A program made the translations under genes and the position numbers. This document shows positions 4,028 to 23,481 of a stretch of DNA of 24,695 nucleotides, piece after piece. Source of the DNA: a virus; the IMG/VR virus record IMGVR_UViG_3300042539_000817, positions 1 through 24,695 of that record; one strand, given 5' to 3'. The notes below the pieces were generated by a model. That model was not told the origin of the DNA. It saw only the letters and a list, made by a program, of their open reading frames with translations, and made no database searches. Position 1 is the first letter of the stretch, and each line of letters starts with the position of its first letter.

Positions 4028-4099
4028 GCCCTCATCGTCTAGTGGTTAGGACATCACCCTTTCACGGTGGTAACAGGGGTTCAATTCCCCTTGGGGGTA
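4028..4099 (+). tRNA. tRNA-Glu (anticodon TTC)
   Basis: It starts one base after the CCA of tRNA-Gly, so both were probably transcribed together. The acceptor GCCCTCA pairs with TGGGGGT (two G-U pairs). The anticodon stem TCACC/GGTGG holds loop CTTTCAC with anticodon TTC, and the T-arm AGGGG/CCCCT encloses TTCAATT. The discriminator is A at 4099. CCA is not encoded (CAA follows) and would have to be added by the host. Confidence 0.9.
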
Positions 4100-4104
4100 C
4101 AATA

Positions 4105-4125
4105 TGTTACAATAAAATAAAGGAG
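4105..4125 (+). promoter_or_regulatory. Extended -10 (TGTTACAAT) and ribosome binding site
   Basis: TG at 4105-4106 and TACAAT at 4108-4113 form an extended -10 box just after tRNA-Glu. AGGAG at 4121-4125, five bases before the ATG at 4131, is the ribosome binding site and would lie near the 5' end of the transcript. Confidence 0.5.
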
Positions 4126-4130
4126 AAAAA

Positions 4131-4835
4131 ATGGCAATAACTATTTATTGGGCTTGTATTGAAGATGAGTGGATAAAAGCAGTTGAGCCAGAAAAAGTAA
4201 GTAAAAGATTTTATTCTATGGGCATTAAAGATGACAATAGATCATCTCCAATAGCAATTAATCACTGTCCTGTTTTTAATGGATCATTGACAAATACTTA
4301 TGCAGTAAAATCAATATATGATTATTCTTTTAAAGTTGAAAACGGCCAATGTGTTTCATCAGACCATGACCAAAAATTTTTTGATGAACATGTTTTTATA
4401 AGATTGCTTGAAAAAAAATTTTTTTCTTTTAATGTAAGATATATTTTTTTTACAGAAGAAGATGATTTAAATATGAGTGCTTATCAGTATCCATTTTTTG
4501 AAGATAATGAAATTACTAAAAGATGTATGATAATTCCTGGAGATTTTAATATAGGAAAATATTTTCGTAATTTAGAATTTCCATTTATTTTAAAAAAAGA
4601 GTATGATGAATTTATAGTTAATAATGAAGATGTTTTATATTATTTAAAATTTCATACTGAAGAAAAAATAAAATTTAAACAATTTAGATATAATGAAAAT
4701 TTAAAACAAATGCTAGCAGATGTTAGAAAGGCAAATAGCGGTAATAAAAGGGGGGCAAGTATGCAAGTATACTACAATAAATTTAAAGGAAAAAAATATA
4801 TTTTAAATCAAATTAAACAAAACTTAATAGACTAG
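4131..4835 (+). CDS. Conserved phage protein, possible DUF6065 relative
   Basis: 234 residues, soluble. Key stretches are NHCPVFNGSLTNTYAVKSIYDYSF (Cys near residue 47), a FFDEHVFIRLLEKKFFS segment, NEITKRCMIIPGDFNIGKYFR in the third quarter, and a closing lysine-rich helical tail. I recall this family from large phages of marine bacteria, always hypothetical. The arrangement Cys-Pro-hydrophobic, then 'Thr/Gly-Tyr-hydrophobic' beta strands, is similar to the proteins at 9853-10557 and 2262-3029, so the three may be diverged copies of one fold. The reaction and partners are unknown. The gene follows the tRNAs under its own weak promoter with a good ribosome binding site. Confidence 0.68.
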   Translation: MAITIYWACIEDEWIKAVEPEKVSKRFYSMGIKDDNRSSPIAINHCPVFNGSLTNTYAVKSIYDYSFKVENGQCVSSDHDQKFFDEHVFIRLLEKKFFSFNVRYIFFTEEDDLNMSAYQYPFFEDNEITKRCMIIPGDFNIGKYFRNLEFPFILKKEYDEFIVNNEDVLYYLKFHTEEKIKFKQFRYNENLKQMLADVRKANSGNKRGASMQVYYNKFKGKKYILNQIKQNLID

Positions 4836-6273: not shown

Positions 6274-6548
6274 AAACAATACTTTACTTTACTGCAGATT
6301 GGTGTCAGCCGTGCAAAAAAGTAAAACCCATCGTTAAAGAATTAAACAGGGACTACGTTCCTGGAATTTTTCAAATGGTTGATGTTGATATAGAAAATGA
6401 AATGGCTAAAAATTTTGAAATTAAATCTGTTCCAACATTTGTTTTATTAAAAGAAGGTAAGGAAATAAATCGTACCACTGGTGTAAAAACAAGGGAAGAA
6501 TTGGAAAATTTTATTAATTATGAAAAAACTATTCAAGAGAATATTTAA
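6270..6548 (+). CDS. Thioredoxin
   Basis: 92 residues, a compact thioredoxin fold. The active site is WCQPC with Cys12 and Cys15 (Gln replaces the usual Gly), the buried acidic residue region DVDIE is at 38-42, and the cis-proline is Pro55 in SVPTF. It reduces disulfides in the cytoplasm; phage thioredoxins can serve ribonucleotide reductase or act as a DNA polymerase processivity factor, but neither partner is in view. The gene is coupled to the nuclease by a 4-base ATGA overlap and overlaps the next gene by 29 bases. Confidence 0.92.
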   Translation: MKTILYFTADWCQPCKKVKPIVKELNRDYVPGIFQMVDVDIENEMAKNFEIKSVPTFVLLKEGKEINRTTGVKTREELENFINYEKTIQENI

Positions 6549-6906
6549 TCCAGATGGGAAAAGCATGACTTCAGATGAAAATGAAATGATTGAAAAATTA
6601 ATTCTTGAAGGTGGTCTAGAGGTTGCTGGTATTGACTCTGAAGATGGGTCATTGCTATATTCATTTACTCCTAAAATTAAACAGTTAATGCCAGAATTAT
6701 ATGATGACCACATGAATGCTGTAAACGCTGAGATATTGTCTTTGTGGGAAAGAGGGTATGTAGACATAGACTTTTTATCTAAAGATCCAGTAGTTACATT
6801 AGCATTAAAATCATTTGATAAAACAGAAATGTCTAAGTTAACCAAGCGTGAAAAATGGTCTATTGAAGAACTTAAAAGGCTGTCTGGCAAGCATCCAAAC
6901 AACTAA
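6520..6906 (+). CDS. Conserved phage protein of unknown function
   Basis: 128 residues, soluble and helical. Recognisable stretches are LEGGLEVAGIDSEDGSLLYSFTP (residues 29-51), PELYDDHMNAVNAEILSLWERGYVD in the middle, and LTKREKWSIEELKRL at the end. The middle part has the appearance of a small winged-helix-like or helical phage protein, but I cannot name a family. The start at 6520 overlaps thioredoxin by 29 bases with a poor ribosome binding site. ATG 6565, preceded by GGGA, is a plausible alternative that would remove the basic N-terminus. Confidence 0.7.
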   Translation: MKKLFKRIFNPDGKSMTSDENEMIEKLILEGGLEVAGIDSEDGSLLYSFTPKIKQLMPELYDDHMNAVNAEILSLWERGYVDIDFLSKDPVVTLALKSFDKTEMSKLTKREKWSIEELKRLSGKHPNN

Positions 6907-6910
6907 ACCC

Positions 6911-6919
6911 TGATATAAT
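6911..6919 (+). promoter_or_regulatory. Extended -10 promoter (TGATATAAT), leaderless
   Basis: TG at 6911-6912 and TATAAT at 6914-6919, with ATG 6926 exactly six bases later. The nine-base motif is identical to that at 14-22. There is no ribosome binding site and no clear -35 box. Confidence 0.72.
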
Positions 6920-6925
6920 AGTAAA

Positions 6926-7987
6926 ATGCCATATCGTGTAGGTGCTAAAGGTTCATACGGTTGTTCTGGCTACCCTGCTTTAAAAGAGGGTACCAACGAA
7001 GTTATGGGCTGTCACAAAACACGAGGACAGGCAGCAGCACAAATTTATGCAATTAATAGATCAGAGGGGAACATAGGTAAAAGCATGGTTAAAGAAGGCG
7101 ACATGGTAATGGCACCAAATGACGACGAAGTTTATGTTGGTCGTGTTGTTCATGTAATGACAGAAGGAATGCTAGGTTTTCCTGGATCAGAATATGCACT
7201 TGCAGCATCCGCTACAGAACCTGCAGTATTAATTCAACTTTTTGAAATGGAAGAAGGCGGATTAGAAGAAACAGAATATTTTATTGGTAAAAAAGCATCT
7301 GAAGTTATGGCAATGCCATCTCTTGAATCTAATGTTGGTATGGATAAATCTATGGACAATAATGATAAAGAAGATGATTCATACGAGTCTGATAATGAGG
7401 ATGAAGATAAATGGGACAACATGACAAAAGCATGTTGGGTTGGATATGAGCAACGTGGTATGAAAGAAAAAGACGGACGTATGGTTCCTAATTGTGTTCC
7501 AGTAAGTAAGTCAAATGAAATTGATAAAGCAAAAAAACCAAACTATGATGAATTTATTAAGCCACGTAAAGGTGAGCCAGCAAATGCTAGACTTTATGCA
7601 CGTATTATTCAAGAAGCAAAAGATAAATTTGATGTGTATCCATCTGCAGTTGCTAATTCTTGGGTAGTTCAAGAATATAAACGTCGTGGCGGAACTTATA
7701 AATCAGAAAAACGTGATTATTCTACAGCGTCCCGTGAAAGAATGGCAGAATCTGGAAATGCAATGCCTGATGGATCATTCCCAATCTCAAATCGTGCAGA
7801 CCTTATGAATGCAATTCGTTCTGTCGGTCGTGCAAAAGATTATGAAAAAGCAAAAGCACATATTGTTCGTCGTGCAAAAGAATTAAATGCAACAGATATG
7901 TTGCCAGAAGATTGGAACAATATGGCTCGTAAAGGTATGACTAGTTGGGGCGGATCTATATTTGATTTAAATCCGTTTAAAAAATAA
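6926..7987 (+). CDS. Multi-domain phage protein (DUF5872/DUF6582-like)
   Basis: 353 residues, a string of short phage modules. Residues 1-50 (MPYRVGAKGSYGCSGYPALKEG, then VMGCHKTRGQAAAQIYAI) resemble a Cys-containing motif common at the N-terminus of phage proteins. Residues 55-130 form a beta-rich segment (VKEGDMVMAPNDDEVYVGRVV). An acidic linker lies at about 143-165. CWVGYEQRGMKEKDGRMVPNC starts near 169. A DUF5872-like piece (DVYPSAVANSWVVQEYKRRGG) is near 240-260 and a DUF6582-like piece (AESGNAMPDGSFPI..NRADL...IRSVGRAK) fills the end. Similar modules flank phage prohead proteases, so a virion or assembly role is likely. The leaderless promoter fixes the start. Confidence 0.78.
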   Translation: MPYRVGAKGSYGCSGYPALKEGTNEVMGCHKTRGQAAAQIYAINRSEGNIGKSMVKEGDMVMAPNDDEVYVGRVVHVMTEGMLGFPGSEYALAASATEPAVLIQLFEMEEGGLEETEYFIGKKASEVMAMPSLESNVGMDKSMDNNDKEDDSYESDNEDEDKWDNMTKACWVGYEQRGMKEKDGRMVPNCVPVSKSNEIDKAKKPNYDEFIKPRKGEPANARLYARIIQEAKDKFDVYPSAVANSWVVQEYKRRGGTYKSEKRDYSTASRERMAESGNAMPDGSFPISNRADLMNAIRSVGRAKDYEKAKAHIVRRAKELNATDMLPEDWNNMARKGMTSWGGSIFDLNPFKK

Positions 7988-9641: not shown

Positions 9642-9863
9642 ATGATAATTAAAAGTTTAAATACAATGGAAAAAATTGTAAATAAAAACAAAAACTTATT
9701 TTGGAGTGGTTGGGATGTCGTTGATTTAAAAGAATCTGATATAGCAAGAACCTCTCCTTTAGGAATTAGAGTAAAAGATAAGTGGTATTTGCATAGAATT
9801 TATAAACCTACCCGTATTGGTTGGAATATACCAAATAAATATGGAGATAAAAATGAAAAATAA
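9642..9863 (+). CDS. Small phage protein of unknown function
   Basis: 73 residues. ATG 9642 is preferred because AGGAGA stands six bases before it and just after the stop of the upstream gene; an ATG at 9609 would overlap that gene and has no site. The protein is basic, with NLFWSGWDVVDLKESDIARTSP and GIRVKDKWYLHRIYKPTRIGWNIP, suggesting a small beta-rich domain of the kind seen in other phages. The function is unknown. It overlaps the following start by 11 bases. Confidence 0.65.
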   Translation: MIIKSLNTMEKIVNKNKNLFWSGWDVVDLKESDIARTSPLGIRVKDKWYLHRIYKPTRIGWNIPNKYGDKNEK

Positions 9864-10557
9864 AATATTGTTTGTTCCAATATCAATAGATTTAAACAAT
9901 AGTTTTAATTTAGAAAAGCCAAAACCAGCAAAAAATTTTTTACCAATTTGGTGGAAAGAACAAGAATTAACTTTAAAAAATGAAAATAAAGAAGATTTTA
10001 TACCACCCCAAATATCTTTTAAAGGCTGTATGCCATTTTTAGATTCTTTAACTACTGGATATATGCTATCTACACATCAAGATATTTACGTGTCAAAACA
10101 AAATAATATACATTTTTTTAATTGGAACGTTGGACCAGATCCAATAGCAGTAAGGGATAATGGAAAAGTTTTAAGTACACTACCAACTCCAGATGGTTGC
10201 AGTGAAGTGCATTATGCTTGGAGAGGAAATTTTGGAATACTTCTCCCAAAAGGATATAGCATGCTAATTACTCATCCACTTAATAGAAATGATTTACCCT
10301 TTATTTCAAGTAGTGGAATTGTTGACGAAGGTGTTCCATGGCCTGGACAATTTTCATTTTGGATAAAAAAAGATTTTACTGGTTTAATTCCACAAGGAAC
10401 TCCTATAGCACAAATAATACCATTTAAAAGAGAAAATTGGGATTCTGAATTAAGGGTAGATTTAATTAAAGAAGCACAAAATAAAAGTATGGAAAAAAAT
10501 AAATATTTTTTTGGATTTTATAAAAAATTTATAAGACAAGAAAAGAAATTTAAATAA
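9853..10557 (+). CDS. DUF6065-like phage protein, second copy
   Basis: 234 residues from ATG 9853, which has GGAG at 9843-9846; a longer frame from 9817 lacks a site. Near residue 25 stands PAKNFLPIWWKEQ, then KGCMPFLDSLTTGYMLSTHQDIYVS, a tryptophan-rich middle, LLPKGYSMLITHPLNRNDLPF and SGIVDEGVPWPGQFSFWIKKDF, ending with QGTPIAQIIPFKRENW. The layout (C-P-hydrophobic near the N-terminus, 'G(y/i)-SMLITHP/NLMTIAPP', 'SGIVD/TGVVE', 'PxGTPIAQIIP/KNTPLVGLLP') parallels the 2262-3029 protein closely enough to call them homologous. The role is unknown; proline/glycine turns imply a beta-rich fold. Its stop overlaps the WhiB-like start. Confidence 0.75.
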   Translation: MKNKILFVPISIDLNNSFNLEKPKPAKNFLPIWWKEQELTLKNENKEDFIPPQISFKGCMPFLDSLTTGYMLSTHQDIYVSKQNNIHFFNWNVGPDPIAVRDNGKVLSTLPTPDGCSEVHYAWRGNFGILLPKGYSMLITHPLNRNDLPFISSSGIVDEGVPWPGQFSFWIKKDFTGLIPQGTPIAQIIPFKRENWDSELRVDLIKEAQNKSMEKNKYFFGFYKKFIRQEKKFK

Positions 10558-10838
10558 TGAAGCAACATTTATGGAAAGATCAGGCTGTATGTTTAGGCCT
10601 TGATACAAATATTTATTTTGATAAATATGAAGACGAAGAAAATTCTAGGTATAATGTTGACGCACTTTGCAAACAATGTCCAGTAAAAAAAATATGTTTT
10701 GCCAACGGAATTTCTGGAAAAGAGTGGGGTGTTTGGGGTGGCGTATACTTAGAAGGTGGAGAAATTTCAAAAGAATTTAATAAACATAAAACTAAAAAAG
10801 ACTGGTCTGAAACTTGGCAGTCATTAACAATGGAATAA
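10557..10838 (+). CDS. WhiB-like Fe-S transcription regulator
   Basis: 93 residues. The four cluster ligands are Cys12, Cys38, Cys41 and Cys47 (C-x25-CxxC-x5-C), followed by GVWGG at 58-62, the diagnostic turn of the Wbl family. The charged, Lys-rich C-terminus corresponds to the DNA-binding or partner-binding tail. Wbl proteins hold a redox-sensitive [4Fe-4S] cluster, bind the principal sigma factor and are confined to actinobacteria and their phages, so this gene is strong evidence for the host. It may redirect host transcription or block host Wbl action. The start shares a base with the upstream stop (TAATG). Confidence 0.93.
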   Translation: MKQHLWKDQAVCLGLDTNIYFDKYEDEENSRYNVDALCKQCPVKKICFANGISGKEWGVWGGVYLEGGEISKEFNKHKTKKDWSETWQSLTME

Positions 10839-15996: not shown

Positions 15997-16843
15997 TTAC
16001 TTGCCTCATAATCTCAATTGATAAATCTCTTTTATATTTTATCCACCAACAGACAGTTTTATGCATATTGCTCATATATGTTTCTAATAAGTTTGGTAAT
16101 AATTCTGACAGGTGATTCCAGTTTTCAAGAGTTTTTATTGGATGAATATCTCCAAAAACAAAATTATAAAAATCTGGATTTATACCCTTTGAATCTATTC
16201 TATCACCTATTGGCAAACAAAGTGTTTCAATTGCCTCATAAAATCTAAAAGAATCTATTACTTCAGCCCCGCTTGGACAAGGAACAATTTTTGATAAACT
16301 CATCTTGTCGTAATAATTTTTGGGTTTTAATCCTTCAGCAAATCCATTAGTTGGATTATAAAAAGAATTTTCTATTTGAGGCATAACGTTTGCAAGTTCT
16401 TGTCTTCTTTGATGTGTTATTTGACCAGAAAAAAACACATCGTAAGATTTGTTTTGATATTGTGGCAAGTTTTTAGAAAAATGTTGTGGTACACCAAGCG
16501 CTAACTTATTATATTTTATATGTTTTTTATGAGGATATTGTACCCAAATCTCAATATTATTATGATTTATTTTATCAACATTGAACGTAGCAGATTCATC
16601 TCCAGTGATAAATAGAACTACTCTTTTTATTTTATTTAATTCATTTGATATCTGTTCTTCATAATCAATGTTTTGTGGGCCAGGAATTACGACAAAGGCT
16701 TTTTCTATTTCTGGCAGTTCTGTTGTTTTGATTTGTTTAATTTTATTTTTATTAAAGATTTCTTTTAATAATCCATAATCCCATTTGTCGGAAGCACAAT
16801 CTTCTTCTTTAACAGAATATAAAAATGCTTTTACTTCATTCAT
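15983..16843 (-). CDS. Exostosin (GT47)-like glycosyltransferase
   Basis: 286 residues. KSYDVFFSGQITHQRRQEL is the typical opening of the second half, and YYDKMSLSKIVPCPSGAEVIDSFRFYEAIETLCLPIG (about residues 181-217) matches the exostosin pattern 'KFxLxPxGxxxDSFRxxEAxxxGCxPV' in spirit. The enzyme would be an inverting GT-B transferase. The first 110 residues are less conserved. Its start overlaps the end of the GT2/zinc-ribbon gene by four bases and its end overlaps the GT-A gene by 14 bases. Confidence 0.72.
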   Translation of the reverse strand: MNEVKAFLYSVKEEDCASDKWDYGLLKEIFNKNKIKQIKTTELPEIEKAFVVIPGPQNIDYEEQISNELNKIKRVVLFITGDESATFNVDKINHNNIEIWVQYPHKKHIKYNKLALGVPQHFSKNLPQYQNKSYDVFFSGQITHQRRQELANVMPQIENSFYNPTNGFAEGLKPKNYYDKMSLSKIVPCPSGAEVIDSFRFYEAIETLCLPIGDRIDSKGINPDFYNFVFGDIHPIKTLENWNHLSELLPNLLETYMSNMHKTVCWWIKYKRDLSIEIMRQVNAKV

Positions 16844-17673
16844 TTTTTTGTACCATCCTGCATAAATTCAGAAGAGTCGCAGGCAGCACAACTATCAACC
16901 TGAAGATCCCCACTTACAGACATCGTCTTAAAATTATTACCACATTTACATTCAACTTTTACTTCAAAAAAGACTTGTTTGTCTTTTTTAGATTCATTAT
17001 TTATCCACTGATTGTAATAGTCATTAGTAAAATATTTTAAACCATTTTCTGGATTATTGAAAGGGTAAAAGTAAGAGTTGTATGGGTCTTCATTAGTTGA
17101 CGGATACCTACCCCATTTTTTATTATAGTATTCTTTTGTTTCTCCCATGTTTGGATCAACACCACCAAGTTTATGGCTATGCCCCATTATTGTATCTTTA
17201 ATATCAATCTTAACTTTTTTCCATGTAGTTTTTTCTTCTTTTATTTTTTTCCAATGATCATTATAATCTAATAAAAATGCTCTTTGTATTCTCATACTAT
17301 AATCTAAATCTTCATATCCATATGGCGTAAAGTTTGTATCCCAAAATCCAACCTTATCAATTAATGTTTTATGAAAAGCAATAAAGTGCCATCCAAAAAC
17401 TCCAAGGGCCTCAATAATTACATAGTCGGTATTTTCTAATATTTCTATAAAGTCTAAGCCACCAGGTTCTCCAAAACGAACTGCAGCACTCATAACTATA
17501 TACCAGTCTGCATCTTCATCATACATTTTTTGAATTCCTAAATTATGACTTGCAGCAAACCCTATATTGTTTTCAGTATTATCAATTTCAAAAACATTTT
17601 CTAACTTACAAGTTTCCATAAGTTCATCTTTAAAAGATTTAATTCTATAAGGAAGACCAACTACATACTTCAT
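16840..17673 (-). CDS. GT2 glycosyltransferase fused to an L31-like zinc domain
   Basis: 277 residues. Residues 1-150 form a GT2 (GT-A) transferase: NTENNIGFAASHNLGI and YGYEDLDYSMRIQRA are diagnostic of rhamnosyl-type GT2 enzymes, although the usual DxD is replaced (VMSAAV). The last 46 residues (16840-16980 region) carry CKCGNNF.T and CAACDSS, a CxC..CxxC set (Cys242, 244, 262, 265). The order, spacing and neighbours (VEC-CGN-F-T-S-L-VD-C-C) match the zinc-binding part of bacterial ribosomal protein L31, which I have not seen on a glycosyltransferase. It probably transfers a sugar in the operon's pathway; the added domain's role is unknown. Confidence 0.8.
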   Translation of the reverse strand: MKYVVGLPYRIKSFKDELMETCKLENVFEIDNTENNIGFAASHNLGIQKMYDEDADWYIVMSAAVRFGEPGGLDFIEILENTDYVIIEALGVFGWHFIAFHKTLIDKVGFWDTNFTPYGYEDLDYSMRIQRAFLLDYNDHWKKIKEEKTTWKKVKIDIKDTIMGHSHKLGGVDPNMGETKEYYNKKWGRYPSTNEDPYNSYFYPFNNPENGLKYFTNDYYNQWINNESKKDKQVFFEVKVECKCGNNFKTMSVSGDLQVDSCAACDSSEFMQDGTKK

Positions 17674-18671
17674 TTGTTAAATATATCTTGATTTACCCAA
17701 GTTTTTGGAGTTAGGTTATTTTGAATTTCAACTGGTATATTAAAATTAAATGGCCCAGTTCCTCTTTGTTTTACCCATTCAATCATTGATGTTAATATTT
17801 CTTTTAATTCATACTTTGTTTCATATCCAAGCAATTTTCTTGCTTTATCAGCAGAACAATGTGCTAATCTTACTTCAGAAGGTCTTGCATCTAAGTAAAT
17901 TGGATCTAAGTCAAATCCAATAATAGAGGCTATTTCTTTTGCTAACTCATTAATAGTTATAAAATTATCATCTGGACCAATATTAATTACTTCTCCATTG
18001 GCGACATCAGAAAAAATAACTTTGTGAAATGGATCAATGATATCTCTCATATCAGAAAAACATCTTTTTTGATTACCATCTCCATAAATAATTGGCTGTT
18101 TTCCTTGAAGCATTCTATTAATCATAATGCCAGCAACATTTCTAAATGGATCAGTATAGTTCTGTCCACTACCCACAACATTATGTGGTACAAGAATAAC
18201 AAACTCCATACCATGAGTTTTTGAAAGATTTTTTAACGTTAATTCAAAAGCATGCTTTGCAATTCCATAAGGATCTTGTGGTTTAGGCGTCATGTTTTCT
18301 GTAAATGGCAAGGTATCTTGTGTTCCGTACCTAGCCATGCTTGATGTAAATATAAACTTTTTTACACCAGCCTGAATTGCACAACTTAATACATTCATAG
18401 AATTTCCATATGTATTGTCTGTTATAAACTTAGGAGAAAATACAGAAAGACCCTCATGGGCAGTACATGCTGCATGGACTACAACTTCAATATCTTTAAA
18501 ATCTTCTTTTGTTAAATCATTACAATCTTTTTTTATAAAGTTAATTTCAGATGGAATGTTATCTACATACCCACCAATTAAACTATCAATGCCAGTAATG
18601 CTATGATCGGAAAGACTTCTTGCAAGGTTGCTTCCTAAAAGACCAGCGACCCCAGTAATTAATATATTCAT
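17670..18671 (-). CDS. NAD-dependent epimerase/dehydratase (SDR family)
   Basis: 333 residues from MNILITGV, chosen because GGGGAG precedes it; a start 12 bases upstream is less likely. The extended SDR signature is complete: GVAGLLG near residues 7-13 binds NAD(P), TSSMARYG holds the catalytic Ser region, and YGIAK near 140 supplies the Tyr-x3-Lys pair. GDGNQKRCFSDMRDIIDP and the NIGPDDNFIT segment are the sugar-nucleotide-binding parts of UDP-glucose 4-epimerase or dTDP-sugar enzymes. It would supply a modified sugar nucleotide for the transferases that follow it on the minus strand. It is the first gene of the operon that runs to 14090. Confidence 0.92.
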   Translation of the reverse strand: MNILITGVAGLLGSNLARSLSDHSITGIDSLIGGYVDNIPSEINFIKKDCNDLTKEDFKDIEVVVHAACTAHEGLSVFSPKFITDNTYGNSMNVLSCAIQAGVKKFIFTSSMARYGTQDTLPFTENMTPKPQDPYGIAKHAFELTLKNLSKTHGMEFVILVPHNVVGSGQNYTDPFRNVAGIMINRMLQGKQPIIYGDGNQKRCFSDMRDIIDPFHKVIFSDVANGEVINIGPDDNFITINELAKEIASIIGFDLDPIYLDARPSEVRLAHCSADKARKLLGYETKYELKEILTSMIEWVKQRGTGPFNFNIPVEIQNNLTPKTWVNQDIFNK

Positions 18672-18696
18672 GGTTCTCCCCATTTACTCTTATAAT

Positions 18697-18732: not shown

Positions 18733-19383
18733 ATGAATGAAATGTTGGTTATAGTGCCATCCAGAGGAAGACCAAAAAATCAGGAAAGATTTTTAGAATA
18801 TTTTTTTAAAAATTCCGTTATTAGTGATTTATGTTTTGTATTAGATACTGACGATGAGTCTAACTATCCCAGATTTGATAAGGTTATTTATGAACTATTA
18901 GAGCCCTTAATGTTAAACGAAAAGTTAAACATTATCTCAAGCAAATATTGTAATGATTATAAATTTATTGCTTTTATAGGAGATGACCACTTGTTAAAAA
19001 CTTATGCCTGGGATAAAACATTAACTAAACCGTTATTAGATAGGATTGGAATATCCTATGGAAATGATCTTTATAAAAAAGAAGAACTTCCAACATGTGC
19101 AGTCTTAAGTTCTAGTATTATTAAACATCTTGGGTATATGGCTCCGCCAGAGTTAAAACATTCATACATTGATAAGTTTTGGCTAGATCTTGGGCTTGCA
19201 GTTAATAACTTAAACTATTTTGAAGATGTAGTTTGGGAACACATACATCCAGATAATAAAAAAACAGAAGTTGATGAAACATATTTACGTGGATGGTCTA
19301 GCCAGTCACAAGATAAAGAAAATTATTTGCTTTATAAACAAAACAAGTTTAGTAATGACGTTATAAAACTAACTAATGTTTAA
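18733..19383 (+). CDS. GT-A-type glycosyltransferase, leaderless
   Basis: 216 residues. MNEMLVIVPSRGRPKNQERFLEYF resembles the first strand and loop of GT2-like enzymes, FVLDTDDESNYP is the second strand with acidic residues, and FIAFIGDDHLLKTYAWD (near residues 77-93) provides the DD metal motif. The end (EDVVWEHIHPDNKK) contains the His expected near the active site. Such proteins are seen in actinophage glycan modules. It is transcribed away from the epimerase operon and overlaps the next minus-strand gene by 15 bases at the 3' ends. Confidence 0.72.
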   Translation: MNEMLVIVPSRGRPKNQERFLEYFFKNSVISDLCFVLDTDDESNYPRFDKVIYELLEPLMLNEKLNIISSKYCNDYKFIAFIGDDHLLKTYAWDKTLTKPLLDRIGISYGNDLYKKEELPTCAVLSSSIIKHLGYMAPPELKHSYIDKFWLDLGLAVNNLNYFEDVVWEHIHPDNKKTEVDETYLRGWSSQSQDKENYLLYKQNKFSNDVIKLTNV

Positions 19384-20328
19384 TTCTTTTAATATAGTTG
19401 CCCATCTATGAACATATGTATGTTCTTTTTTAGTTCTTTCATGTCCATTAAGTCTTATTGATTCTCTTGATACTCCGTCTAATAAATATCTATCTATTTT
19501 ATTTTTTAGATCTTCAAGATTACCGTGTTCATAAAATACAATTTCAATCTCATCTTTAAAATATTCTTCAAGTCCTTTAATACGAGGGTAGATAGTAAAA
19601 CCACCACGACCAGTGCTTTCAAACAACCTATCGCTAGTGTAGTATGGATAGTTAAAGTTTATGTTAAGACTATCACCTATTGCTACTTTGCTTTTTGCAT
19701 ATATACGATTAAGCGCATCTCCACGAACTGTGCCAGTGTCTCCATCGCCACCAACATGTAGAAATCTTTTGCCGTATGTTTTTCGTAAGAAATCTATTAG
19801 TTGTGGACGGTATTTATGTTCAGGATGATAACCCTTACTACCAACAAAGATAATATCGTTTTCAAAGTTATGTGGATCATAGTCTTCATGGACATAACAC
19901 TCTTTATCATATACACCAGCAGGCAAGAAGTGTCCTTTAACCTGTGTGTTTTCATTAAACCAATCACACATTAACTTATCTGTAGCAAAAAAATGACCTA
20001 TGCTTGTATAAAAATCATCACCCTTTAAATCTTTTTCACGCTCAATGCCAAACCATAAATCTAAATGATAGGTCATAGTTGGTACGCCAGCAGCCTTTAA
20101 TTCTTTTAATACATCTGTCATTGTTCTAGATCCTGGGGTTTGCCATCTATGTGTGTGTACCCATATGAATAGATCAGACTTTAATGCTGCATTTAATATT
20201 TCTGTGCTGCCTGCTTTTTTTTCTTGCAATTTTTCAACGGTATGCCCAAGAGATTCTAAAGACTTAGCATGATGATTCTCACTACTATAAGGCACTTCAA
20301 AGTTGCCAAGAAATACTATGTTAGCCAA
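19369..20328 (-). CDS. GT-B (CgeB-like) glycosyltransferase, TTG start
   Basis: 319 residues from TTG 20328, read as MANIVFLGNFEVPYSSENHHAKSL. The ATG at 20358 would lie on a promoter-like TATACT, while GGGG (20334-20337) stands five bases before the TTG, so TTG is the better start. The N-half has HTHRWQTPGSRTMTDVLKELKAAGVPTMTYHLD; the C-half has NDIIFVGSKGYHPEHKYRPQLIDFL and SDRLFESTGRGGFTIYPRIKGLEEYF, the donor-site pattern of CgeB/GT1-like proteins. It probably adds a sugar to the same polymer as its neighbours. It overlaps the plus-strand GT-A gene tail to tail by 15 bases. Confidence 0.78.
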   Translation of the reverse strand: MANIVFLGNFEVPYSSENHHAKSLESLGHTVEKLQEKKAGSTEILNAALKSDLFIWVHTHRWQTPGSRTMTDVLKELKAAGVPTMTYHLDLWFGIEREKDLKGDDFYTSIGHFFATDKLMCDWFNENTQVKGHFLPAGVYDKECYVHEDYDPHNFENDIIFVGSKGYHPEHKYRPQLIDFLRKTYGKRFLHVGGDGDTGTVRGDALNRIYAKSKVAIGDSLNINFNYPYYTSDRLFESTGRGGFTIYPRIKGLEEYFKDEIEIVFYEHGNLEDLKNKIDRYLLDGVSRESIRLNGHERTKKEHTYVHRWATILKELNIS

Positions 20329-20361
20329 GATTACCCCTTTGTTTATATCAGTATACACTAT

Positions 20362-21036
20362 CTAATGTTTATATAAAAATTCAATCAATTTTTCATATTT
20401 TCCCATTGTTCCACAGTCAAAATATCTACCGCCAACAATTAAGCCTTTTACTATTAGTCCAGAATTTGCTGCTGGCATAATAGAAAACCCAATATGCTCA
20501 TCTTCTTTTTTTATATGCTTTATTATTTGATTATCAAACTTTATTAATCCCCAAAAAACTGGATATTTACAGTCAATATCTTTATCTTTTACATCAGCAA
20601 CTGTGTTATCACCTCTAAGTAAAACTTGACCAAGGGTTCCAAATTGATCCTTTTTTATATCCCATAGTGCAAGTAACATATTTGAATTATCTATATTTTT
20701 AATTAAAATCTCATAAGGGTTTTCTCCAACAGTGTAAGTATCTGGCATACCCAAGATATATTGGTCTGATGGAAATGATTCAACTGCTCTTAATATGCTT
20801 TCAGACATGGTTTTAGTTTCAACAACTAAAATACTTATTTTTTCATTTTGTGCTAAATGTCTAAAAAATATTGCATTTTCTGGTTTTGTAATTATAACAA
20901 CTCTTTCACAAAATTTTAATTGATTTTCTATATGCCAAGATATTAATGTTTTTTCTGTTTTAAAAATTGGTAAAAGAAATTTAGGAATTTCTAACATTCT
21001 TTTTGCATCTCCAGCAGCAGGAATTAAACCAATCAT
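20362..21036 (-). CDS. Sugar nucleotidyltransferase
   Basis: 224 residues. MIGLIPAAGDAKRML and IPKFLLPI match the signature of NDP-sugar pyrophosphorylases (G-x-G-x-R loop as GDAKR, then PK-LLP). YILGMPDTY carries the Asp for metal binding, and YFDCGTMGKYEKL near the end is the 'D-x-GT-..Y' tail motif. It would join a sugar-1-phosphate to a nucleotide, giving donors for the transferases around it. It is shorter than RmlA (about 290), so the C-terminal regulatory part is missing. It begins one base after the GT61 gene's stop. Confidence 0.82.
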   Translation of the reverse strand: MIGLIPAAGDAKRMLEIPKFLLPIFKTEKTLISWHIENQLKFCERVVIITKPENAIFFRHLAQNEKISILVVETKTMSESILRAVESFPSDQYILGMPDTYTVGENPYEILIKNIDNSNMLLALWDIKKDQFGTLGQVLLRGDNTVADVKDKDIDCKYPVFWGLIKFDNQIIKHIKKEDEHIGFSIMPAANSGLIVKGLIVGGRYFDCGTMGKYEKLIEFLYKH

Positions 21037-21037
21037 A

Positions 21038-21820
21038 TTATGCTACCTTTTCTTTTTTTAATATATCCATAATTAAATCTATATTTACATCTTCAGTCCA
21101 TGAGTTTTGTGCAAAAATTCTTATAAATTTATGGCCTAGTGCATTTGCTAAAAGTTCAAAAGCATCGTTACTGACCATTGGTCTAGCGCATATTTCAATA
21201 ATTAAACTTCCCTTATCCATCCAGATCATATTGGTTAATCCAGCACCCCATTGACCAATTAATACTTTTAAATTAGAATAAATTTGAATAGCATCTTCTG
21301 GATTGGTATCTGATGTATCAATTAATTCAGAATTATAAAAATTAGAAATAGCGCTGTGTAATTCGTTAATATTTTTAATTGAACGCACTGGCATATCTTT
21401 TATTTTTGGTATTTCTATTTTTTTAAAATCAAAATTATTGTTTCTATTTAAAATTCCAATATTATTTTTATTGTTATTTGTTGGTAAATTATATATATTT
21501 TTTAAAAATTTTATGGTTTCTTGAAATTCATCATTAACAAATTTATCAGAGTTGTCCCAATAATCAAAAACAATACTTGGCATACCAATTAAATAATATT
21601 TTAAAATTAAACCTGAACTTTTTATAGTAATTGGATACATTTTTTGTAAAGATTCTAACCAAGGAGTCATTGGTCCACATTCTCTAACTACAAACATGGT
21701 GTCATCATATTTTTGTTTTCTTAATTCGTTTGCTATTGGAATAAAATATCCAGTCCAAAAATAATATGGATGCTCTAATGATTGTGTGTGTTTTGCAACT
21801 AAAAGTTTATTATAACGCAT
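21038..21820 (-). CDS. GT61-like glycosyltransferase (DUF563)
   Basis: 260 residues. VLIGQWGAGLTNMIWMDKGSLIIEIC (about residues 185-210) is the core GT61 pattern 'GxHGAGLTNxxFxxPGSxVIEI', with Trp in place of the usual His. An earlier region (SIVFDYWDNSDKFV, LNRNNNFDFKKIEIP) lines up with the rest of the domain. The enzyme probably adds a pentose or amino sugar. No ribosome binding site is clear. Its DNA is especially AT-rich. It follows the small helical gene by 18 bases and precedes the nucleotidyltransferase by one. Confidence 0.78.
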   Translation of the reverse strand: MRYNKLLVAKHTQSLEHPYYFWTGYFIPIANELRKQKYDDTMFVVRECGPMTPWLESLQKMYPITIKSSGLILKYYLIGMPSIVFDYWDNSDKFVNDEFQETIKFLKNIYNLPTNNNKNNIGILNRNNNFDFKKIEIPKIKDMPVRSIKNINELHSAISNFYNSELIDTSDTNPEDAIQIYSNLKVLIGQWGAGLTNMIWMDKGSLIIEICARPMVSNDAFELLANALGHKFIRIFAQNSWTEDVNIDLIMDILKKEKVA

Positions 21821-21838: not shown

Positions 21839-22051
21839 TTAAATTTCATTCTGTCCTCTGGCAATTGCAGCAGATATTTGAAATGCTTTGGTTGTACGAC
21901 GGGATTTATTTAAACCTTTTACTTTCCATAAATCACTGGTGCCCTCAATATCTTGAGCAATTTGTTCACGTATCTCTTTAACTGTTTCTACAATGAAATG
22001 CCAAATCTGTTCTTTTTGTTCATCTGTTACTTGCTCTGTCCAGTTAGACAT
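21839..22051 (-). CDS. Small helical protein of unknown function
   Basis: 70 residues, charged and mostly helical (TDEQKEQIWHFIVETVKEIREQIAQDIEG, then LNKSRRTTKAFQISAAIARG). The ribosome binding site AAGGAGA lies just before ATG 22051 and inside the 3' end of the P450 gene, which shows coupling. The sequence has a regulatory or adaptor look, but I cannot name a family. Confidence 0.7.
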   Translation of the reverse strand: MSNWTEQVTDEQKEQIWHFIVETVKEIREQIAQDIEGTSDLWKVKGLNKSRRTTKAFQISAAIARGQNEI

Positions 22052-23368
22052 TTATTTCTCCTTAACAACATTCATTAATACATTTTTTTTAGTTCTTAGT
22101 GTTAATTCTGCAGATGCTTTTGGAAAACCTGAATCTAATAATAATTTCATTTTATTTGCTGTTTCAAGAAGTATTATTTTTGCTTCCATTATTGCAAATT
22201 GATCACCTATACATCTTCGTGATCCAAGACTAAATGGAAAGTATGATCCATTTGGCAATTGTTTTTCAAGTCCATCATACCATCTTTCTGGAATAAATTC
22301 TTCTGGTTGATAAAAATAATTTAAATCTCTATGTGTTACATAAGAACTTATTAATACGGTTGTTCCTTTTTTTAAAAAAAATCCATCAATTTCCACATCT
22401 TTAATTGTTCTTCTGGTGTTTGACCATACTGGTGGACAAAGCCTTAATGACTCATTAATGATTGAGGTTGCTATCTTTGAATTTAATATTTTTTGTCCAA
22501 ACTCAGGAGTATTTTCATACTTAAATATTTCCTTAGATTCCTCTTTTAATAAATTCCAAAGATCTGGCCTATTAGATAAATAAGAAAATGCCCACATTAC
22601 TGAGTTTGAAGTGGTTTCGTGGCCAGCAGTAATCATTGTCAATGTTTCATCATATGCATCTTGTTTTTTAATTTTTTTATTTTTAACTGCTAAGTTTAAT
22701 GCTTCAACTAATTTTGTTAGATTATGTTTTTTATCTTTTACTTTATTTTCAAAAATTTCTTTTGCAATAGCCCTTAAAATTTTAGTAGATTTTGTATATC
22801 TGTTAAAATATGGAATATTATATTTTCTTAATTTATTTAGTTTAAATGGTAAAAGTTGTGTAGTGCCTAGAGTAACCATGTCCATATTTTTTTTAACCTT
22901 TTCAGTATCTTTGGAAAGGTCTGAATTAAATAAAACTTTTGTTGTAATATCAAAAGTAAGAGACATAACCTCTAAATTTATGTTTACCTTATCATTATTT
23001 AACCATTTTTCTGTATATGTTCTTGTTATATCTAACATTTCTTGCGAATAACTTAATATATTTTTTGAATGAAATGAAGGAGATACAATTCTTTTATGCT
23101 CCATATGTATTGGCTCTTCACTTGTAATTAATCCATCACCAAGCAGTTCTTTTAATTTAACGGTTGGGCCAACTTTTATAAAGTTTTCATGTTTAGTTAC
23201 TGTAATTTCATTTACTGCTTTGGGAGAAAAGAAACAAACAATTGGTTTTTTGTTATATAAAAAAGAAAATACATCTCCATATTTATTTTTATTATTTAAT
23301 AAAAACAATGGTGGATTTTTTTTGAAAGATAAAAATAAAAGTTTTGATCTAGGACCATTGGGTAACAT
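22052..23368 (-). CDS. Cytochrome P450 monooxygenase
   Basis: 438 residues, full bacterial length with no membrane anchor. All landmarks are present: a proline-rich N-terminus (LPNGPRSKLLF), the I-helix AGHETT (248-253) that handles oxygen, the ExxR pair as ESLR (306-309), PERW (360-363) and the heme loop FSLGSRRCIG (379-388) with Cys386 as the iron ligand. It should insert one oxygen atom from O2 into a substrate using electrons from a redox partner. No ferredoxin or reductase is in the window. It is coupled (TAATG) to the 37-residue Cys-knuckle gene upstream. A lipid, steroid-like or sugar-linked substrate is possible. P450s in phages are rare. Confidence 0.95.
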   Translation of the reverse strand: MLPNGPRSKLLFLSFKKNPPLFLLNNKNKYGDVFSFLYNKKPIVCFFSPKAVNEITVTKHENFIKVGPTVKLKELLGDGLITSEEPIHMEHKRIVSPSFHSKNILSYSQEMLDITRTYTEKWLNNDKVNINLEVMSLTFDITTKVLFNSDLSKDTEKVKKNMDMVTLGTTQLLPFKLNKLRKYNIPYFNRYTKSTKILRAIAKEIFENKVKDKKHNLTKLVEALNLAVKNKKIKKQDAYDETLTMITAGHETTSNSVMWAFSYLSNRPDLWNLLKEESKEIFKYENTPEFGQKILNSKIATSIINESLRLCPPVWSNTRRTIKDVEIDGFFLKKGTTVLISSYVTHRDLNYFYQPEEFIPERWYDGLEKQLPNGSYFPFSLGSRRCIGDQFAIMEAKIILLETANKMKLLLDSGFPKASAELTLRTKKNVLMNVVKEK

Positions 23369-23481
23369 TAGTCTGGCTCCTTTTCAAAAATTTTTAATGT
23401 ATTTGAATTATTTAAACAATAGTTACAGTCTTCATTTACCAATTTATTGCCACAAGTAATACAAAAATTATTAAATTTCAT
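23368..23481 (-). CDS. Mini CxxC/CxxC metal-binding protein
   Basis: 37 residues. Cys7, Cys10, Cys19 and Cys22 form CITCG and CNYC, two knuckles separated by eight residues. This fits a zinc ribbon, or in principle an iron knuckle as in rubredoxin, though rubredoxin has about 29 residues between pairs. The start overlaps the hydrolase gene by 11 bases and the stop overlaps the P450 start by one (TAATG), so it is co-translated with P450. It could be an assembly factor, a regulator or an electron donor; this is inference. Confidence 0.7.
   Translation of the reverse strand: MKFNNFCITCGNKLVNEDCNYCLNNSNTLKIFEKEPD

Follow-up and report, generated by a model that had tools for sequence, protein, structure and literature searches.

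The locus described here raises the question of what a cytochrome P450 gene is doing in a viral genome, and whether the very small cysteine-containing protein encoded immediately upstream of it is its partner. The window, that is, the whole stretch of DNA analysed, comprises 24,695 bases and is a virus record in IMG/VR. The initial annotation, made from the sequence alone, described an intact P450 in a phage-type context, preceded by an ORF of 37 amino acids with two CxxC knuckles, and suggested that the two proteins might work together. The features relevant to this question are as follows.

10557..10838, plus strand: WhiB-like regulator (PF02467, E=2.9e-11; PHROG WhiB)
17670..18683, minus strand: NAD-dependent sugar epimerase/dehydratase (PF01370, E=1.6e-40)
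19369..20358, minus strand: glycosyltransferase, start of a conserved glycan operon (PF13524, E=1.9e-24)
20362..21036, minus strand: MobA-like/IspD-like nucleotidyltransferase (PF12804, E=4e-8)
21038..21820, minus strand: glycosyltransferase family 61-like protein (PF04577, E=1.1e-12)
21839..22051, minus strand: p70, a conserved phage protein of 70 aa (MSNWTEQVTDEQKEQIW...), usually found downstream of the mini gene
22052..23368, minus strand: cytochrome P450, 438 aa, intact, with heme-ligand Cys386
23368..23481, minus strand: zinc-ribbon-like mini protein, 37 aa, two CxxC knuckles, a widespread phage family
23471..24226, minus strand: SGNH-hydrolase-like protein, 251 aa, overlapping the start of the mini gene; no Pfam match, and provisionally named from its N-terminal FGDS motif

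The P450 ORF extends from an ATG at 23368 to a stop codon ending at 22052, and residues 10-407 of its product are covered by the Pfam p450 family (PF00067, E=6.9e-66), with a score of 223 bits, above the curated cut-off of 22.8. The FxxGxRxCxG signature is present as FSLGSRRCIG, which includes Cys386, together with AGHETT at 248-253 (the I-helix AGxET motif), ESLR at 306-309 (ExxR) and PERW at 360-363. In an alignment with seven other P450s (8 sequences), A248, G249, E251, T252, E306, R309, R362 and C386 were invariant, so the description of an intact enzyme with every catalytic motif was confirmed. A structure predicted with AlphaFold, of low confidence (pLDDT 62.8) and too weak to point to a substrate, gave 50 listed PDB matches, all of them P450s, with a best E of 5.3e-16 and TM scores of 0.61-0.75, while the top PDB match by sequence was 3dbg, which we take to be CYP170A1. 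Among the curated NCBIfam families, the closest resemblances were to bacterial terpene-type P450s, albaflavenone monooxygenase (CYP170; 1.4e-51) and pentalenene oxygenase (1.3e-41). Both were far under their cut-offs (175.5 bits against 700 for the terpene-type comparison), and no terpene cyclase was recognised near the P450 in the window.

As P450s are common in bacteria, the window could in principle be a piece of bacterial chromosome or host contamination, and two further IMG/VR matches (L059 and L060) do resemble host P450s adjoining prophages. An identical P450 (100%) was found in two other IMG/VR contigs, G001 and G002, with aligned DNA 99.7-99.8% identical to that of the window. The larger view is given by G002 (46 kb; shared DNA 99.8% identical), which carries genes for a terminase large subunit, a UvsX/RecA-type recombinase, a RuvC-like resolvase and a Cas4-like exonuclease, placing the terminase and recombinase, as phage hallmark genes, on the same molecule as the P450. 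In addition, the terminases encoded on the contigs of five other phages with related P450s (38-110 kb) are 55-57% identical to the G002 enzyme, and the genes flanking the P450 in the window are conserved in dozens of viral contigs. The phage context proposed initially is therefore upheld, and a bacterial origin of the contig, which was checked specifically, has a negligible probability. The WhiB-like gene in the window points to an actinobacterial host; whiB has been described as a marker gene for freshwater actinophages (PMC6802176).

For the mini protein (MKFNNFCITCGNKLVNEDCNYCLNNSNTLKIFEKEPD), the four cysteines (Cys7/10/19/22) and the TAATG shared by its stop codon and the P450 ATG could be read directly from the DNA, as had been described. 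Homologues that are 55-67% identical keep all four cysteines, which shows that this is a real protein and not a chance ORF. A degenerate DNA pattern for the family matched at least 80 viral stretches. Of the 80 listed, three were unrelated long ORFs and two were the P450 contigs; the other 75 contigs encode 49 distinct mini proteins. Among these listed matches, none of the 75 other mini-bearing IMG/VR contigs had a P450, while in 58 (57 from a script count, and L080, with a p70 that starts MTKWT) the mini stop overlapped the start of a p70 homologue by 8 or 14 nt. In L014 and L015, for example, the homologue (55-58% identical, four cysteines kept) overlaps the p70 start directly with no P450 between them, and in some phages genes other than p70 come after the mini gene. 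On these counts, the mini protein is conserved among phages and is regularly found next to p70.

The same counts make the P450 read as an insert. In relatives, the junction DNA is ...GAAGATGACTAACTGGAC..., with the mini stop inside the p70 start, and in the window it is ...CCAGACTAATG on the mini side of the P450 and AAATAAATGTCTAACTGGAC... on the p70 side. A P450 at this junction is known from one phage only (three near-identical contigs), and among the contigs sharing the sugar epimerase, which is 70-100% identical across 32 viral loci, it was found only in G001 and G002, the copies of the window's phage. The glycosyltransferase at 19369..20358 is 72-92% identical in relatives without the P450. 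The SGNH-like gene was present only in the three P450 contigs, apart from a 30% identical relative in L018. Comparison with these relatives suggests that the P450 has most likely been inserted between the members of an old overlapping mini-p70 pair, and its rarity favours insertion over loss. In L015, the mini-p70 pair is immediately preceded by a luciferase-like monooxygenase gene (6480-7433); oxidative enzymes therefore seem to come and go at this site.

Two other features of the region were observed. A glycan-operon protein at 16840-17673 of the window has a C-terminal extension with Cys knuckles and a weak ribosomal L31-like match. A multi-copy family of ~230-245 aa with a 'SMLITHPLNRNDLPF' motif recurs within and between phages, at 9817-10557 in the window, 4072-4794 and 5674-6381 in L003, and 5772-6467 in L015.

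The proposal that the mini protein is a redox partner (rubredoxin-like, binding iron) or assembly partner of the P450 was based on the direct TAATG overlap and the four conserved cysteines. The overlap is not special to this pair, because most gene junctions in the P450 operon overlap or abut, including that between the mini and SGNH-like genes, and the coupling can be explained as a by-product of the position of the P450 at the mini-p70 junction. The suggested check of co-occurrence was run, and the mini gene was found without a P450 in most relatives and normally coupled to p70; the partner role was rejected on this ground. The window-type mini gene was also absent upstream of the P450 in the five other phages, three of which (L054, L055 and L058) have a Cys-free gene of 74-91 aa there. 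The knuckles of rubredoxin are spaced by about 29 residues, far more than the 8-residue gap of the mini protein, and no match to ferredoxin or rubredoxin families was obtained. Instead, four of five family members weakly matched the DZR zinc ribbon (PF12773), with a sub-threshold 18.2 bits against a cut-off of 27.3. The family shares the FCxxCGxxL...CxxC pattern with DZR proteins, although it also has a conserved acidic tail (NSNALREFEEED) that DZR does not explain. Somewhat in favour of a partnership, in L057 (3870-3980) and L068 (4855-4986) the P450 start is overlapped by a different Cys protein of 36-43 aa (CxYC...VCKxH), with no relation to the mini protein by BLAST. This second family had no P450 in the fetched locus for 41 of 44 viral stretches, and about 21 of the 192 genes below 100 aa that a simple ORF count gave for 11 stretches of these phages encode small Cys-knuckle proteins. 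Given this base rate, finding a small Cys gene upstream in two of three independent P450 arrangements is a mild, after-the-fact coincidence, which we estimate ourselves at about 3%. The mini protein is thus almost certainly not the partner of the P450, a role to which we give very little probability; to judge from its sequence, it is most likely a structural zinc ribbon that serves the phage in some unrelated way.

The P450 itself belongs with those of five other phages (L054, L055, L057 with its copy L056, L058 and L068), which were brought up by an alignment-based scan and are 33-37% identical to it. In a maximum-likelihood tree of 22 sequences, the six phage P450s formed one group with 100/99 support and a long stem, the sequences outside it being only plasmid-borne P450s with the Pseudomonas-like one from phage Y1, two prophage-side sequences and that of mycobacteriophage Adler. 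Two scans across 84,980 species genomes, one starting from the single protein and one from an alignment, brought up no close cellular relative; both used exact short peptide patterns, a method of limited reach as plasmid P450s at ~32% identity exist. The P450 in the window is a real phage P450 of a new clade, which is possibly restricted to phages. In all five other phages, the P450 is preceded by a short-chain dehydrogenase/reductase (SDR) gene and by at least one small gene; L054, L055 and L058 have a 2OG-oxygenase-like gene directly after it, and luciferase-like genes lie nearby in these three and in L068. We refer to these SDR, P450, 2OG-oxygenase-like and luciferase-like genes as an oxidative island. 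As a cassette, SDR - small gene - P450 - 2OG-Fe(II)-oxygenase-like occupies 3077-6126 in L054, 3036-6102 in L055 and 3062-6108 in L058, with the luciferase-like gene ~2 kb upstream in each.

That phage P450s are rarely reported, as had been remarked, agrees with the literature searched, which names only that of Mycobacterium phage Adler (PMC9405906, PMC11814380). Adler's enzyme, CYP102L1, was reported as acquired from its host Mycobacterium abscessus (PMC11814380), whereas the two pattern-based genome scans gave no close cellular relative for the P450 described here. Both come from actinobacteriophages and neither has a redox partner that could be found, but the two are only 25.5% identical over 82%, and in the tree Adler's is not part of the viral clade. 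Membership of a CYP family requires about 40% identity or more, so the window's P450 would not be placed in CYP102. Other candidates were rejected. The P450 of Pseudomonas phage Y1 (L044, OQ572403.1) is likely host contamination, because it lies among bacterial-chromosome-like genes (methyltransferase, TetR-like, efflux-like) in an unannotated record marked UNVERIFIED. The closely related P450s of L059 and L060, which lie right beside prophage genes, are probably host genes.

Taken as a whole, the locus is best explained by a cargo P450 at the mini-p70 junction, acting as a monooxygenase powered by the host, next to an unrelated mini protein, and we regard this explanation as probable. The P450 would be an auxiliary metabolic gene of an actinobacteriophage, and its product would most likely be made in the infected cell as an active monooxygenase, with Cys386 expected to hold the heme and the AGHETT helix to activate oxygen. 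In seven P450 phage records, which are fragments or of unknown completeness, no match was obtained to Fer2, Fer4_15, Fer4_13, Pyr_redox_2 or Flavodoxin_1, so the earlier remark that no iron-sulfur donor is visible still stands, and no flavodoxin or reductase was found in these records either. As the phage shows no donor, electrons would be supplied by ferredoxin and ferredoxin reductase of the host. The simplest assumption is that the electrons come from the host, which PMC9405906 also implies for viral P450s in general, and no redox partner was known in viral or phage genomes with P450s at the time of the earlier reports (PMC9405906, PMC11814380). The likeliest substrate would be a small lipophilic host metabolite or lipid, a guess that follows from the weak family resemblance to terpene-type oxygenases.

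Two other functions could be considered for the enzyme. It could act in the neighbouring glycan operon, oxidising a sugar- or lipid-linked intermediate and so remodelling the cell surface or the virion, as it lies on the same strand between the SGNH-like gene and the genes for the family 61 glycosyltransferase, nucleotidyltransferase and glycosyltransferase. We consider this unlikely, though worth keeping in mind, since the operon is conserved across many related contigs that have no P450, and the other phage P450s adjoin SDR and 2OG-oxygenase-like genes with no glycosyltransferase in the stretches read. The same glycosyltransferase neighbours, the lack of a recognisable electron donor and a weak match to TIGR04515 (1.7e-10; 40.8 bits against a cut-off of 343) could also indicate that the protein is not a monooxygenase, being a peroxygenase or a non-catalytic helper like the P450-derived glycosyltransferase activators. 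This is improbable: Cys386 and the acid-alcohol pair of the I-helix (E251, T252) are kept, while the activators are not known to have the heme-ligand Cys, and the protein matches the peroxygenase family CypC only weakly (4e-6).

To summarise, we favour a host-powered cargo monooxygenase beside an unrelated resident gene. A tiny Cys gene that overlaps an enzyme gene need not encode a partner: it can be a resident separated from the gene it normally adjoins. Beyond essentially one mycobacteriophage in the literature searched, six distinct phages of one lineage share a P450 clade, which, together with the failure to find a close cellular relative, suggests a maintained function and not a recent accidental pick-up. 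More tentatively, a phage-restricted P450 family may have evolved in this actinophage lineage, often within an oxidative island, where it could modify a specific host metabolite with electrons from the host.
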